Source: Planktothricoides sp. SR001 (GTDB lineage Bacteria; Cyanobacteriota; Cyanobacteriia; Cyanobacteriales; Laspinemataceae). From it: DNA of 64,000 nucleotides. The DNA lies in NCBI RefSeq assembly GCF_001276715.1, contig NZ_LIUQ01000037.1, positions 2,387-66,386 on the forward strand. Direction: 5' to 3'. The notes beneath the pieces were generated by a model that saw only the letters and a list, made by a program, of their open reading frames with translations, made no database searches and was not told the origin of the DNA. This document shows positions 7,653-14,336 of this stretch, one piece after another. The first letter of the stretch is position 1, and every line of letters starts with the position of its first letter. A program made the translations under genes and the position numbers.

Positions 7653-7917
7653 TCAGGGGCGATCGGCGTGACTCAACTTACAGAAAATCAATGATTTCGA
7701 TCGCCATAAAACGGTGATTTCACCATTGGCGATCGAGGTGAAATTGACCCGCTGGCCTGCTTGTGTAAACTTTTCTTAAAGTTGACCCAAATTTAAGGGT
7801 TTTTTGTAAAGATTTGCGAATTACTGCATCCACCCGACCGGACTCACCCGATCCATTGAATACAATAAAAGAAGTCACTAAAAGAAGTCACTTTTTGATT
7901 GTTAAGGAGGGGGGAAG

Positions 7918-9687
7918 ATGGTGGACTTTACCGTAGCAATTCCGACTTATAACGGCGAAACTCGATTACCTGATGTACTGGAACGACTGCGATCGCAAGT
8001 TGAGACTGAATCATTTACCTGGGAAATTTTAGTCATTGATAACAACAGCTGCGATCGCACCGCTCAGGTAATTCGCGAATATCAAACCCAGTGGCCTTCA
8101 TGGTGCCCATTAATCTATTACTTTTGTCCCGAACAAGGGGCAGCATTTGCACGCCAAAAAGCCGTAGAAAAAGCCAAAGGAAAACTCATCGGATTTCTCG
8201 ATGATGATAATCTCCCGGAAAAAAACTGGGTAGCTGCTGCTTATGAATTCGGCCAAAACCATCCCCAACTTGGCGCTTATGGCAGCCAAATTCATGGGTA
8301 TTTTTTTGAAGCCAATACCCCAGAAGAAATGCCGAAAAATTTTAAAGAAATTGCTAGTTTTTTAGCCATTGTCGAAAGAGGAAATACACCCCATTTATAT
8401 AATCCATACCATAAAATACTACCCCCAGGGGCAGGGTTAGTGGTAAGAAAAGATGTTTGGTTAAAAAGCGTACCCAATCGGTTATTTTTAAATCATCAAG
8501 GCAAAGAAGCTGGTATGGCCAGTGAAGATTTAGAAGCGTTATTGCATATTCAAAAAGCCGGGTGGGAAATTTGGTATAACCCAGAAATGATTGTATATCA
8601 TAAAATTCCTAATAATCGCTTAAAAGCCGATTATTTACGGCTACTTACTCGCTGTGTCGGCTTAAGCAGACATAGACTACGTATGATGACCCTAGAAACT
8701 TGGCAAATACCTTTAGCCTTTCCTGCATATTTGGCTAACGATCTGCGTCGATTAGTTCTTCATTTAATTAAACATGGTCTGAACGTAAAAAAAGATCCCG
8801 TTGCGGCCTCCCAAAGAGAATTTCTCGTCAGTACCCTGGTGAGTCCTTTATTTTTATGGAAGAAAAAACAGAGCAAAAAGATTCCCAGGGAAATCTTCAG
8901 TCAATCTTTACAAAAAACCGAACAAATTCTCAATCAAATTGCTCAAGGATTTGAACAAGATCGCTTTTGTCTTTATGCTCAAGAAATTCAGCCGATTAGC
9001 CCCTTTAATTCCTCAAACCAACATACAGAAATTCTCTTAAGACTAAAAGACGAACTCGATCGCATTCTCCTGCCGAGTGAATTTATGCCGATCGCCCAAC
9101 ATTATAAATTGATGCCCACCATTGACCGCTGGGTCGTTCGCCAAATTTTTAGGGAAATTGCCGGGGAAAGTCTCGACCCCAGTTTATCTTTATATGAAAT
9201 CAATGTTTCCATAGAAACGGTGAAAGATCCTAATTTTATCAATTTTCTTCACCGTGAATTTAGAGAGTATGAAATTACGCCAGAAATGATATCCTTTGCG
9301 ATTTCAGAAACTTGTGCGATTGCTAATTTAGAAACAATAATTAAATTTATTAACTACATCAAAAAAATCGGCAGTCAACTCACCTTAGATCATGTGGGCA
9401 GGGGAAATATTTCTCCTAAATATATCAAAAAAATGCCAGTAGATTACTTGAAAATTGATGGTAAATTCTTCAGCCAGCGGGCGTCAAATCGGCCAAGCAT
9501 TGATAAAATTTATCAGATCAATGATTTAGGTCATCAACTTGGCATGAAAACAATTGCCGAAGCCGTAGAAAACCAAGAAATTTTTGAACAAATGAAATCC
9601 ATAGGAGTCGATTACGTCCAAGGGTATGGCATTGCCCCAACCCACCCCTTAATCACTTACAGTCATCGGCAATCTCTCCTCAGTTAG
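7918..9687 (+). CDS. HpsE-like family 2 glycosyltransferase fused to a degenerate EAL domain
   Basis: 589 aa in one uninterrupted frame, with a strong ribosome site (GGAGGGGGG) before ATG 7918. Residues 1-300 form a GT-A glycosyltransferase like HpsE of hormogonium polysaccharide synthesis: VAIPTYNGE, the nucleotide/metal-binding LDDDN (95-97) and a catalytic-type SEDLE (203). A basic linker (about 300-335) leads to an EAL fold (about 340-580), the c-di-GMP phosphodiesterase family. EAL landmarks: EIL in place of EAL (371-373), SET (463-465), DHVGRG (491-496) in place of DDFGTG, LKID (511-514), AEAVE and QGY (568-570). The second metal-binding aspartate is histidine, so hydrolysis is doubtful; the domain may sense c-di-GMP or act structurally. 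The product may be an exopolysaccharide. Confidence 0.88.
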   Translation: MVDFTVAIPTYNGETRLPDVLERLRSQVETESFTWEILVIDNNSCDRTAQVIREYQTQWPSWCPLIYYFCPEQGAAFARQKAVEKAKGKLIGFLDDDNLPEKNWVAAAYEFGQNHPQLGAYGSQIHGYFFEANTPEEMPKNFKEIASFLAIVERGNTPHLYNPYHKILPPGAGLVVRKDVWLKSVPNRLFLNHQGKEAGMASEDLEALLHIQKAGWEIWYNPEMIVYHKIPNNRLKADYLRLLTRCVGLSRHRLRMMTLETWQIPLAFPAYLANDLRRLVLHLIKHGLNVKKDPVAASQREFLVSTLVSPLFLWKKKQSKKIPREIFSQSLQKTEQILNQIAQGFEQDRFCLYAQEIQPISPFNSSNQHTEILLRLKDELDRILLPSEFMPIAQHYKLMPTIDRWVVRQIFREIAGESLDPSLSLYEINVSIETVKDPNFINFLHREFREYEITPEMISFAISETCAIANLETIIKFINYIKKIGSQLTLDHVGRGNISPKYIKKMPVDYLKIDGKFFSQRASNRPSIDKIYQINDLGHQLGMKTIAEAVENQEIFEQMKSIGVDYVQGYGIAPTHPLITYSHRQSLLS

Positions 9688-9730: not shown

Positions 9731-9842
9731 CTTGCTTTGGGTTGCTTTGGGTTGCTTTGGGTTGCTTTGGGTTGGTTTGGGTTGGTTTGGGTTGGTTTGG
9801 TTTGGTTTGGTTTGGTTTGGGTTGGTTTGGGTTGCTTTGGGT
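9731..9842. repeat. Decamer tandem array (GGTTGSTTTG) before the RRM gene
   Basis: About eleven consecutive 10-base units of the form TTGCTTTGGG or TTGGTTTGGG, with slight variation in the middle. The + strand has only G and T with a few C. It lies about 210 bp upstream of the RRM gene. Confidence 0.92.
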
Positions 9843-10047
9843 TTCCTCCAGTCGATCATGTTAAGTTTTGTAAGATTTTGTGGCAGCCTCAGCCCCAGAT
9901 CAAAAATCTATGTTATAGTAGAGTCTCAGAGTAAAATTCGGTTGCAGCGTTTGTTTGTAGTATTAATAGGTATGTCCTTTTTAGTATTGGCAGGCTTCTC
10001 TCCGAAAACTCAAACACTACACTTTTTTTGATGTCGGAGAGGATCCT
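9843..10047 (+). promoter_or_regulatory. Probable 5' leader and ribosome site of the RRM gene
   Basis: AT-rich leader between the decamer array and ATG 10048. GGAGAGGA at 10036-10043 is a good ribosome site with 4-7 bases spacing. TATGTTATAGT near 9908 resembles a -10 region. Cyanobacterial Rbp genes often have long, cold-responsive leaders; that is family knowledge, not shown here. Confidence 0.4.
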
Positions 10048-10564: not shown

Positions 10565-11458
10565 TTATTGTTCGCCGGTAATACTCCAGGCGCCATCCCA
10601 ATCATCAGCGGGAGGATTTTTGATCAACTTTTGGCACCGTTGCAACAGCAACCCAGCCGCTTGATCGTGGGCATTTATTTTTCTAACTCTGGCAAACTCA
10701 CCCATCGCATTGGCAAACTGACGGTTCAAATAAAACTCACGACCTTTATGATACAGTTCGAGAATCTGCTCCTGATCCGAAGACAAGGGGTCAGAACGTA
10801 GTCCCAAAATTTCATAAATAGGTACTGGGGTCTTATTATTCCGCATCCGAATCACATCCAGTTCTCTCACCCAGACGCGATCGGCACATTTTTCATAAGT
10901 ATTTTTACTCAGTACGATATCGCAACCATACTGCTTACTCAGACCTTCTAAATAATAAGCAATACTGACCCCTTCACCAATGGCGGTGAATTCCATTCGT
11001 TTAGTGGAACCCTTTTGACCACTTAAAATCAGATCGGAATTAATCCCAATGCCAATTTTAATCGCTGGTTTATTTTCCGTTTGCCGCCGCTGATTAAAAT
11101 CCGCCAAACGCTTGCACATTTGCATTGCGGTTTGAACTGCCAGCCATGCATGATTCTCCACGGCAATTGACGAACTAAACACAGCGACAATTGAATTTCT
11201 AATTCCCGCTAATTCTATTTGTTGGTCTAGATTTTGTTTATATTCATACACCGCATTAATCATTAACTGAAAATATTCATCAAGCAGATTGGCTACCTCT
11301 GATGACTCAAAATTTTGAATCAAATATTTGTAACCATAAATATCAGAAAACAAAATCGAGCATTCCTTGATTTCGCACCCCAATTTATCAGCATCAAGAG
11401 CGGTTTCTTGGGGAATGCCGGACGGGAAAACATTAACTGACTGGCTATCTACTACCAT
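10565..11458 (-). CDS. Class III cyclase-like protein without the catalytic residues
   Basis: 297 aa, close in sequence to the C-terminal part of its upstream neighbour (cyclase domain plus short C-terminal region, both ending in NPPAD-WDG-W). D39 in ILFSDIYGY is kept, but the second metal-binding aspartate (GDAIM in the neighbour) is N88 in RNSIVAVF. The transition-state Asn and Arg of VNLASRLEG are S165 and Y169 in VSIAYYLEG. K153 of KRMEF remains. There is no sensory domain. It is probably unable to make cAMP, and may pair with or regulate the neighbour (inferred). It lies 166 bp downstream of the neighbour on the same strand and ends at its own terminator. Confidence 0.85.
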   Translation of the reverse strand: MVVDSQSVNVFPSGIPQETALDADKLGCEIKECSILFSDIYGYKYLIQNFESSEVANLLDEYFQLMINAVYEYKQNLDQQIELAGIRNSIVAVFSSSIAVENHAWLAVQTAMQMCKRLADFNQRRQTENKPAIKIGIGINSDLILSGQKGSTKRMEFTAIGEGVSIAYYLEGLSKQYGCDIVLSKNTYEKCADRVWVRELDVIRMRNNKTPVPIYEILGLRSDPLSSDQEQILELYHKGREFYLNRQFANAMGEFARVRKINAHDQAAGLLLQRCQKLIKNPPADDWDGAWSITGEQ

Positions 11459-11624: not shown

Positions 11625-14336
11625 CTATTTTTCTGTGAGCTTCCAAACACCATCCCAGTTGTCTGCGGGCGGATTTTCGATGAAATGTAAACACCGATCG
11701 ATATGCAAATTGGCGGCTTTGTTATCTTTATCAATTTCAATCACTTTACCAAACCTAGACATTGCCAGTTCAAACTCGCGATTTAGGTAATATTCGCGAC
11801 CTTGGTGGTAAGCGTCGATCAACTCCTTCTGTTTTGGATCGATTTCTTGCGCCAGAGGGCCATCTTTAAGGCCGACTAACTCATAAATTCTCACTGGCTC
11901 AGTTTTACCTTTAACCGTAATAAAGTCGAGTTCCCGAACCCAAACACGATCTTTACAGGCTTCGTAAGTTTTTTCACTGATCACGATCACGCAGCCGTAC
12001 ATTTTGCTGGTGCCTTCCAAACGAGAGGCTAAGTTTACCCCGTCCCCAATGGAGGTTAATTCCATCCGTTTGCTGGAGCCAATATTACCACTGACCACGG
12101 CATCGGAATGAAGCCCAATGCCAATAGAGAGAGTTTTCTTCCCTTCCGCTTGGCGCTTTTTGTTAAACACTTTTAAGCGTTGTCCCATTTCCACAGCGGT
12201 TTGCACCGCACACCATTCGTGGTCAGCCAAGGGTAACGGGGAACCAAACACGGCCATAATTGCGTCCCCAATGTATTTGTCCAGGGTGCCTTTGTATTTA
12301 AAGACCGCATCCACCATTGACTCAAAATACTCGTTGAGCATGGCCACCACTTCTTCCGGTTCCATCCCTTCTGTGAGAGTGGTGTAGCTGCGAATATCCG
12401 AGAACAGCACCGAGACTTCTTTCTTCTTGCCACCCAGACCCGTATCGCCACTTTGGAGTAATGCTTCGGCCACTTCCTGGGTCATGTAACGATACATGGT
12501 ACTCTTGAGCCGTTTTTCATCACTGATGTCATCCATGACCACCAGAGCCCCATAGACATTTGTGGGATCTTTGGCGTCGGAGATCGAATTAATGGACAAA
12601 TTAATACTATGCTCTTCCTCTGAATTATGGGAGAGCAGGGTTTGTTCGGGATAGTATTGATTGCGGGCTTTTTCGTCTGTCCCCGCCAAAGCTTGTTCAA
12701 ACCATTTGGCAAACTGATCTTCTTGTTGCAGCTTGACGACGTTGCAGATGTGCTGCTCTTCTAAGCGATCGTCTTTGCCAAAACCAAGCAATTGTTTAGC
12801 GGTTTGATTGGCAGCAATAATAATTCCATTTTTATTGGTAGAAATCACCCCATTGCTGAGACTGCGGAGAATATCCCGTTGCAGTTGTTCTTGTTGTCTA
12901 ACGGTGGCAAATAGTTTGGCATTTTGCAACGCCACCCCTGCTTGGGTGTTAAACGCTTCCATGAATTCCTGGTCAGAACGACTAAAAGACGCTTTCCAGA
13001 ATTCTGGCGCTTCCGGCCAAGTGGTCGGATCGTACGGAGGATGTTCGTTATATTTCTTTTTGTTCACCAATTGAGTTACGCCAATCAACTCGCCATCGGA
13101 GTTAAATACTGGCATACAGAGTAAGCTGCACGTCCGATATTTAGTTTTTTGGTCGGTTTGTTTGGAGGTTTCTGACCCAGGATGGGCATATAAGTCAAAG
13201 GAAATGTTCAAAGGCTTGCCGGACGTGGCCACTTGACCAGCAAAACCAGCATTTCGGGGAATCCTAACTTCTTGTATTACTCCATCGATAGGGATTTTTG
13301 TCCAGAGCTCATTTTTTTCTTCGTCGATCAACCAGAGGGTTGAGCGATCGGCGTTCATCAGCTTTTTGGCTTCATCCATGACCCGTTTCAGGGTATCTTC
13401 CAGGTCTAAGCTACTCTTACTCAGAGATTGAGTTGCCGACATCAGGGCAGCGGCAGCCCGTTGCCGCTGCGAGGCTTTGCGGAAAGACCGAGAAGATTCC
13501 AGGATCATCAATACCGATGGGGCGAATTCTTGGAAAACTTTCTCATCTTCTTCGGTAAAGCCTCTGGTATCGATGCGATCGCTTAGTGGCTGTTCGGGAT
13601 CGTGAACTTTTTTTAACTTGTTCATCAACTGCACCACAGCCACCAACTCTTCCGGTTTGTTGTCCTCTTGTTTTTTTAACAAGGGCATACAGAGCATGGT
13701 GTAGGTGCGGTATTTAGTCTGTTTGTAGGTTTTTTTGGATTGCGCCGATCGCGCATCATCAAAAAAGTCAAAGGGTATATTCACCACTTTCTTAAAGGTG
13801 GCCACTTCCCCGGCAATCCCTTGATCTGCCGGAATGCGAATCTCTAAGGAGTCTCCCGTGTCTCCTTTGGCGACAATTGACCAGAGTTCGTTTTTATCTT
13901 CATCTAATAAAAAAATCGTGGTGCGATCTGCTCCGAGTAATTCCCCTGTTTTTAAGGTGATGGAACGCAACATTTCATTCAGTATGGAGTCAAACCCCTG
14001 GGCGTCTAAGAGACTGTCCAACATGGACAGGGTTTGATTCACCACCTCTAGTTTTGTCTCAACGTCGCTGACAACTTGTTTAAAGTTTTCTTTGTTCAGA
14101 GGGGCGAGAAACGACTTAAAGGTTCCCTGGGTAGTTACTAGGGCATTACTACTCGTAGGTGCAGCTTGTTCCTCGGCAGGCTGTGCAAATGCGGGTGCTT
14201 TTTCTGATGCTGGTTTTTGCTCAATGTTTTTGCCGTCATTTTCGAGGTTGACAACAGTGGCATCAATGGTGACGGTATGTGTACTGTTTTCCATATTACT
14301 GTTGTGAATACGGCGATTCGGAGATGCATCTGTCAT
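11625..14336 (-). CDS. cyaB: Adenylate cyclase, GAF-GAF-PAS-cyclase-TPR (CyaB1-like)
   Basis: 903 aa with the architecture of Anabaena CyaB1. A disordered N-terminus (1-85) is followed by GAF-A (about 115-285), GAF-B (about 310-475), PAS (about 485-610), a class III catalytic domain (about 635-825) and a TPR-like tail (about 835-890). Both GAFs keep the spaced N-K-F-D-E cyclic-nucleotide motif (QLMNK with FTEEDEKVF; QLVNK with FSRSDQEF). Metal aspartates are D647 (FSDIR) and D691 (IGDAIM), and transition-state residues are N768 and R772 (VNLASR). It should make cAMP and respond to cyclic nucleotide through the GAFs, as CyaB1 does. Confidence 0.92.
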   Translation of the reverse strand: MTDASPNRRIHNSNMENSTHTVTIDATVVNLENDGKNIEQKPASEKAPAFAQPAEEQAAPTSSNALVTTQGTFKSFLAPLNKENFKQVVSDVETKLEVVNQTLSMLDSLLDAQGFDSILNEMLRSITLKTGELLGADRTTIFLLDEDKNELWSIVAKGDTGDSLEIRIPADQGIAGEVATFKKVVNIPFDFFDDARSAQSKKTYKQTKYRTYTMLCMPLLKKQEDNKPEELVAVVQLMNKLKKVHDPEQPLSDRIDTRGFTEEDEKVFQEFAPSVLMILESSRSFRKASQRQRAAAALMSATQSLSKSSLDLEDTLKRVMDEAKKLMNADRSTLWLIDEEKNELWTKIPIDGVIQEVRIPRNAGFAGQVATSGKPLNISFDLYAHPGSETSKQTDQKTKYRTCSLLCMPVFNSDGELIGVTQLVNKKKYNEHPPYDPTTWPEAPEFWKASFSRSDQEFMEAFNTQAGVALQNAKLFATVRQQEQLQRDILRSLSNGVISTNKNGIIIAANQTAKQLLGFGKDDRLEEQHICNVVKLQQEDQFAKWFEQALAGTDEKARNQYYPEQTLLSHNSEEEHSINLSINSISDAKDPTNVYGALVVMDDISDEKRLKSTMYRYMTQEVAEALLQSGDTGLGGKKKEVSVLFSDIRSYTTLTEGMEPEEVVAMLNEYFESMVDAVFKYKGTLDKYIGDAIMAVFGSPLPLADHEWCAVQTAVEMGQRLKVFNKKRQAEGKKTLSIGIGLHSDAVVSGNIGSSKRMELTSIGDGVNLASRLEGTSKMYGCVIVISEKTYEACKDRVWVRELDFITVKGKTEPVRIYELVGLKDGPLAQEIDPKQKELIDAYHQGREYYLNREFELAMSRFGKVIEIDKDNKAANLHIDRCLHFIENPPADNWDGVWKLTEK

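Follow-up and report, generated by a model that had tools for sequence, protein, structure and literature searches.

In many bacteria, surface polysaccharide is under the control of cyclic di-GMP (c-di-GMP); to our knowledge, little has been established about how this messenger reaches the polysaccharide enzymes of filamentous cyanobacteria. A gene of Planktothricoides sp. SR001, in which a glycosyltransferase is followed by an EAL domain, raises the question of whether one such enzyme carries a c-di-GMP receptor of its own. The gene lies in a stretch of 64,000 nucleotides (hereafter the window), and all coordinates below refer to the + strand of that stretch unless otherwise marked.

A glycosyltransferase and an EAL domain in one frame

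The open reading frame at 7918-9687 runs unbroken for 589 residues, from an ATG at 7918 to a stop codon at 9685-9687, and has homologues over its full length. A Shine-Dalgarno-like AAGGAGG (7904-7910), read directly from the sequence, stands 7 bases 5' of the ATG. Residues 2-312 (7921-8853) are identified as HpsE by the NCBIfam equivalog model NF038302 (453.1 bits against a cut-off of 300; 3.7e-136), whose product name is hormogonium polysaccharide glycosyltransferase, and also match Glycos_transf_2 (PF00535, 82 bits); residues 339-574 (8932-9639) match the Pfam EAL domain (PF00563, 159 bits, 1.6e-46). A preliminary description of this DNA, which had proposed that a single frame joins an HpsE-like GT2 enzyme to an EAL fold, was exact in coordinates and frame, and both domains score far above chance. 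The motifs LDDDN and SEDLE that it named are both present in the translation. DDDN (D95-N98; 8200-8211) forms the DXD-type site and SEDLE (residues 202-206; 8521-8535) contains the ED motif; D95, D96, D97, N98, E203, D204 and E206 are conserved at 90% or more in a 34-row alignment. In GT2 enzymes the DXD-type site is the metal and nucleotide site, and the ED motif supplies the catalytic base. Apart from GT2-type families and EAL, a Pfam scan of the fusion protein with E values up to 1 retrieved no family, and thus neither a PilZ nor an MshEN domain.

Stand-alone HpsE frames are mostly 315-400 residues long, whereas the fusion adds an EAL domain of about 250 residues. In N. punctiforme, hpsEFG are reported to be needed for gliding and for hormogonium polysaccharide (PMC10581220).

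AlphaFold predicted the structure of the window protein (pLDDT 89.3, pTM 0.89) and that of a distant member from another cyanobacterial family, f45 (L049; pLDDT 88.5, pTM 0.87). Between the two domains of the model, a long helix (294-319) leads into a loose loop of short length and from there into the first helix of the EAL (331-347); the linker (residues 313-338; 8854-8931) comprises the end of the first helix, the loop and the start of the second. The high pTM of this two-domain chain, from which the interdomain contacts were judged, suggests that the domains are held in a fixed arrangement. A fold comparison of the EAL half found the EAL domain of RbdA (PA0861) to be the closest (Z 31.6, rmsd 2.3, 249 residues aligned), and RbdA is also the closest solved sequence (186 bits). 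The best match to another protein was the c-di-GMP-bound EAL domain of FimX (3hv8; Z 29.4, rmsd 1.9, 239 aligned), and the entry 3pjt, of the FimX/LapD kind, was matched as well (Z 25.2). An EAL fold, which the preliminary description had read from motifs, is thus predicted for this half.

Spread, selection and origin of the fusion

The source genome (7.07 Mb in 165 contigs, 99.46% complete) contains one fusion gene. It also carries two stand-alone HpsE genes on contig C88, which are 55 and 50% identical to the glycosyltransferase half of the fusion, and GGDEF-EAL proteins on contigs C102 and C33, the EAL pieces of which are 38-44% identical to the fused EAL. Full-length fusions were found in all three genomes of the genus. 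The window's family has them in 8 of its 14 genomes, and f45, which belongs to a different order, in 17 of 63. In wider samples the fusion was present in at least 7 of 194 genomes from the order, all of them in the window's family, and in at least 17 of 388 genomes from the class, both counts being lower bounds since a cut-off of 1e-130 was used and few candidates were scored per genome. Records of Okeania sp. SIO3I5, Leptolyngbyaceae MO_188.B28, Oscillatoriales S07.Bin090 and Leptolyngbya Heron Island J carry the fusion as well; these were not added to the counts, and two pairs of records (L069/L010 and L070/L062) seemingly represent the same genomes. No place covering 80% of the query was found in 72,556 plasmid records. 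The fusion is thus a conserved, patchily distributed gene.

Its presence at full length in relatives of two families shows that the fusion is no assembly joint, a doubt that had accompanied its first description. One copy could by itself recall an assembly artefact or a decaying read-through: in L152, a fragmented f45 genome, an HpsE piece and an EAL piece lie in line (about 648-2460, - strand) in different frames, which may reflect either a sequencing error or decay. Against such a reading of the gene family stand 25 distinct fused sequences with open frames from the two families and dN/dS ratios well below 1, and we consider it refuted, with virtually no probability left to it.

The dN/dS ratios were obtained from 14 chosen, non-independent pairs. 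They ranged from 0.06 to 0.25 for the glycosyltransferase in all 14 pairs and from 0.09 to 0.33 for the EAL domain in 13, the remaining pair being saturated, and the EAL ratio exceeded that of the glycosyltransferase in all 13 pairs with both values. Within the genus, the EAL domains are 75% identical as compared to 91% for the glycosyltransferases. The linker, which at 26 codons is too short to be read, gave ratios between 0.07 and 2.30; in the f1 pairs its conservation is below that of both domains. Judged by the ratios of 0.09-0.33, the EAL domain is maintained under purifying selection and is not a read-through tail.

Phylogenetic trees were used to examine the origin of both halves. For the EAL tree, only non-identical domains of at least 190 residues were counted, and four more rows (L016, L188, and from L217 and L219 the second EAL of each) were dropped, which left 80 domains (25 fused, among them near copies such as L060 and L061, 1 split and 54 stand-alone). 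All 25 distinct fused EALs and the piece from L152 fall on one side of a single branch (support 100/98); their attachment among the stand-alone domains, that is, their sister group, is weakly supported. In the unrooted tree of 52 glycosyltransferase domains, 24 fused domains lie on one side (98/93) and 28 stand-alone HpsE domains on the other, so that uniting the two fused clades, namely the window's group (g1, g3 and Okeania) and f45, in a single clade requires a root placed within the stand-alone set. In a wider 129-row glycosyltransferase tree, built by a quick method, the two fused clades and stand-alone HpsE part at a fork of unresolved order; since identical sequences had been removed, the rows L001 and L191-L195 carry a stand-alone label there although they are fusions, and the count of 5 changes from this tree was set aside.

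Since the fused EALs group together and the fused glycosyltransferases do likewise, a single fusion event is likely, with an RbdA-like GGDEF-EAL phosphodiesterase as the probable one-time donor of the EAL. That the two families acquired the fusion independently was also considered and is not favoured given this grouping of both halves, an argument weakened by the unrooted tree and by long branches (L064, L051, L059, L050, L057 and L054 in the EAL tree; L064 and two stand-alone rows in the glycosyltransferase tree), as long branches of fused EALs can produce false grouping.

Residues kept and lost in the fused EAL domain

Active-site positions are named here after RocR. Some of these residue numbers, as well as the roles of RocR K316 and Q372, are taken as family background, and the positions were matched through the RbdA alignment and family motifs, with no RocR sequence in the alignment. 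RocR Q161 and R179 are described as binding substrate and E175, N233, E265, D295, D296 and E352 as binding metal (PMC7911125). Q161, R179, E175, N233, E265, D295, D296 and E352 were matched to Q355, R375, E371, N429, A461, D491, H492 and E548 of the window protein, respectively. Two metal ligands are thus gone from the window protein, with E265 replaced by A461 (9298-9300) and D296 by H492, and its ligand set is incomplete.

Across the family, the pocket and the metal site have fared differently. Q161, E175, R179, N233, D295, K316 and Q372 have survived in every one of the 25 distinct fused EALs; in the window protein these include Q355 (8980-8982), which we take to be Q161, N429 (9202-9204), K512 (9451-9453; RocR K316) and Q568 (RocR Q372) in the motif QGY (9619-9627), whose Q and G are both kept in 25/25. 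Equally constant is ExLxR (E371, L373 and R375; EILLR at 9028-9042), known in this family as a c-di-GMP binding motif (PMC10333796, PMC7063779) and reported to decide whether EALs without catalysis, FimX and LapD among them, can bind (PMC10333796, PMC12564702). E265 is lost in 8 of the 25 fused EALs, D296 in 18 and E352 in 22; each of them is without at least one of these three residues, and no lesion is common to all.

In the 54 stand-alone EALs, E265, D296 and E352 are all present, and 53 retain all eight scored residues, the 54th being a fragment without the E175 column; these domains were drawn by similarity to L005 and to the EAL of L049, and their intact residues describe that neighbourhood rather than all EALs. 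Ten of the 23 columns that are invariant in the stand-alone set are also invariant in the fused one, and six of these ten are E175, R179, N233, D295, K316 and Q372. The most eroded columns are T463 and E352 (each kept in 3/25 fused EALs) and F297 (4/25), followed by G300 (5/25), D296 (7/25) and G298 (10/25).

These counts bear on the active-site changes that had been read from the motifs. The reading EIL for EAL, proposed as a lesion, was rejected, as the middle residue is ordinary: among the 53 stand-alone EALs with this column it is I in 23, V in 21, L in 5, A in 3 and M in 1 (I or V in 44/53), and an EVL variant is reported to keep activity (PMC7063779). The change of DDFGTG to DHVGRG (9388-9405) was read correctly, with D295 kept, D296 replaced by H492 and the start of loop 6 altered. 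SET, LKID, AEAVE and QGY, listed as remaining, are indeed all present; SET, however, does not stand as an intact motif, since FAISET hides the replacement of E265 by A461. AEAVE (9556-9570) includes E548, the equivalent of E352, which the window protein keeps. The resulting proposal of binding without hydrolysis agrees with the residues of the whole family, which predict it through a pocket kept in 25/25 and at least one metal ligand lost in 25/25. Such a pattern, in which the pocket is kept and the chemistry lost, is what would be expected of a receptor made from an enzyme.

The ligands were lost differently in the two clades. E265 and D296 are both missing in 8/8 members of the window's clade (g1, g3 and Okeania), the five g3 sequences being without E352 as well; in f45, E352 is lost in 17/17 (replaced by K in 15), E265 is kept and D296 is lost in 10/17. 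This difference makes it probable that hydrolysis decayed on two or more occasions, each later than the fusion. Given a single fusion, as the trees indicate, the ancestral fusion protein may still have cleaved c-di-GMP, with hydrolysis then lost separately in the two lineages. We give an even chance to the full course of events in which a single fusion with a probably active phosphodiesterase was followed by two lineages separately dropping hydrolysis (through E265 and D296 in one and E352 in the other) and keeping the pocket, which at least twice turned the domain into an on-board sensor for direct allosteric control of the glycosyltransferase by c-di-GMP.

Some of the same residues could also be read as the remains of a weak phosphodiesterase that lowers c-di-GMP locally around the polysaccharide machine. 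The window protein keeps E175, N233, D295, K316, E352 and Q372, and four of the 17 f45 proteins (L049, L068, L053 and L050) depart from active enzymes at E352 only, among the residues scored, so that residual hydrolysis is possible in some f45 members. Every aligned fused EAL is nevertheless without at least one metal ligand, and the window protein without two, which makes such a role improbable for the family.

A second alternative is that the EAL is a dead scaffold that binds no c-di-GMP and serves to dimerise the transferase or to dock partners. The faster evolution of the EAL half also fits a loosened scaffold, as does the erosion of DDFGTG and of the loop 6 start; pocket residues may be kept for stability, and the degenerate EAL of E. 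coli CsrD is reported not to bind (PMC10333796). This non-binding CsrD, however, has EXMXR (PMC10333796), whereas the pocket residues of the fusion, ExLxR included, are invariant in 25/25, and we therefore regard a scaffold as unlikely, if less so than a weak enzyme. The EAL might instead bind a relative of c-di-GMP, for example pGpG or a different cyclic dinucleotide. A precedent is the FimX EAL, of which a crystal structure with pGpG also exists (entry 4afy); the sequence gave no sign of altered base specificity, and we consider such binding very improbable.

Possible role and gene surroundings

The fusion can be set beside several known systems. RbdA is a PAS-GGDEF-EAL protein with E and DD at E265 and D295-D296, whereas the fusion has A and DH there and a glycosyltransferase as partner. 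FimX and LapD are described as having lost catalysis and kept binding (PMC10333796, PMC12564702), and the fused EALs resemble them in that all 25 have a degenerate catalytic site and keep ExLxR. Unlike the fusion, whose output would be the enzyme in the same chain, FimX and LapD carry GGDEF domains and act via protein partners; LapD is moreover reported to have KVL where the fused EAL keeps E. Glycosyltransferase and c-di-GMP binding are combined in one chain in BcsA (GT2-PilZ), NfrB (GT2-MshEN) and BgsA (PMC12564702, PMC8669469, PMC5567048). The fusion has its glycosyltransferase and EAL in one chain and would resemble these if the latter is a receptor, as we infer. It differs from them in the receptor part, which is PilZ, MshEN or a domain of its own kind in those proteins and would here be an EAL-derived domain joined to HpsE.

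We found no description of a glycosyltransferase-EAL fusion in the portions of the open-licence literature that were searched; a mention elsewhere is possible, for instance in a survey of cyanobacterial c-di-GMP domains. PMC3130047 mentions both a glycosyltransferase and an EAL domain, in separate proteins. All three components have been described before, namely HpsE, degenerate EAL receptors, and glycosyltransferases that carry a receptor domain for c-di-GMP; their combination may be new.

The reading that we prefer, and hold to be rather likely, is that the protein is an HpsE-type GT2 enzyme with its own c-di-GMP receptor, a dead EAL domain that kept the dinucleotide pocket, lost metal-dependent hydrolysis and switches sugar transfer. 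Binding of c-di-GMP to the dead EAL would shift the packing of this domain on the helices at the C-terminal end of the glycosyltransferase (residues 294-347); the shifted helices would in turn switch sugar transfer for a surface polysaccharide. The direction of the switch would most likely be upwards, by analogy to BcsA, PgaCD and NfrB; activation is our first guess because c-di-GMP is reported to activate the precedents BcsA (through PilZ) and NfrB (through MshEN). Inhibition of motility slime is possible instead, since a GGDEF protein of Leptolyngbya boryana is reported to suppress motility and biofilm formation (PMC10581220). In favour of the preferred reading, the source genome yields 33 matches to GGDEF, fragments included, and none to PilZ; its 3 MshEN matches mean that other candidate c-di-GMP receptors exist.

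If the preferred reading is true, the built-in EAL receptor would be a direct wire from c-di-GMP to the synthesis of slime or sheath. The family would also offer a natural series for the conversion of an EAL enzyme into a receptor, in which a probably single origin was followed by catalytic loss along two routes and the pocket was kept throughout, and stand-alone HpsE provides a clean comparison for the fusion.

In the window and in its near relatives L227 and L069 the fusion follows hemW, and neither a second HpsE gene (HpsE2) nor a PF01663 protein was found in these three stretches. In g3 (L221) the fusion also follows hemW and is followed by HpsE2, a PF01663 phosphodiesterase-family protein and a hexapeptide acetyltransferase-like protein that scores below the hexapeptide family cut-offs. 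HpsE2 follows the fusion in 8/8 stretches examined (one from g3, six from f45 and one from Okeania), and the PF01663 protein comes next in five of these; stand-alone HpsE genes are also often in pairs. The same gene order is found in Symploca SIO3C6 (L075), where the first gene is an unfused HpsE, and it is therefore probable that the EAL joined the leading gene of a polysaccharide operon. The HpsE2 and PF01663 partners were seemingly lost in the window's genus; a search of the source genome for the PF01663 partner gave no match, which proves nothing alone, and the same query protein did find relatives in other loci.

The PF01663 protein (type I phosphodiesterase/nucleotide pyrophosphatase, about 550 residues) takes third place behind HpsE and HpsE2 in several families, at L221:5467-7125 and L222:10743-12398, the two loci for which the family scan was made, and also in L067, L068, L223 and L075. 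Two further features lie close to the fusion gene in the window. Just 3' of it, at 9732-9843, is a tandem repeat of the decamer TTGGTTTGGG (11.2 copies, 96% matches). Beyond this repeat, two class III nucleotide cyclase proteins are encoded side by side on the - strand (10565-11458 and 11625-14336); identity between the small protein and the cyclase end of the large one, a GAF-GAF-PAS-cyclase, is about 49% (134/273 aligned columns, gaps included). The small protein reads IRNSIVAVF as compared to IGDAIMAVF, and it seems to be a duplicated, probably inactive partner.
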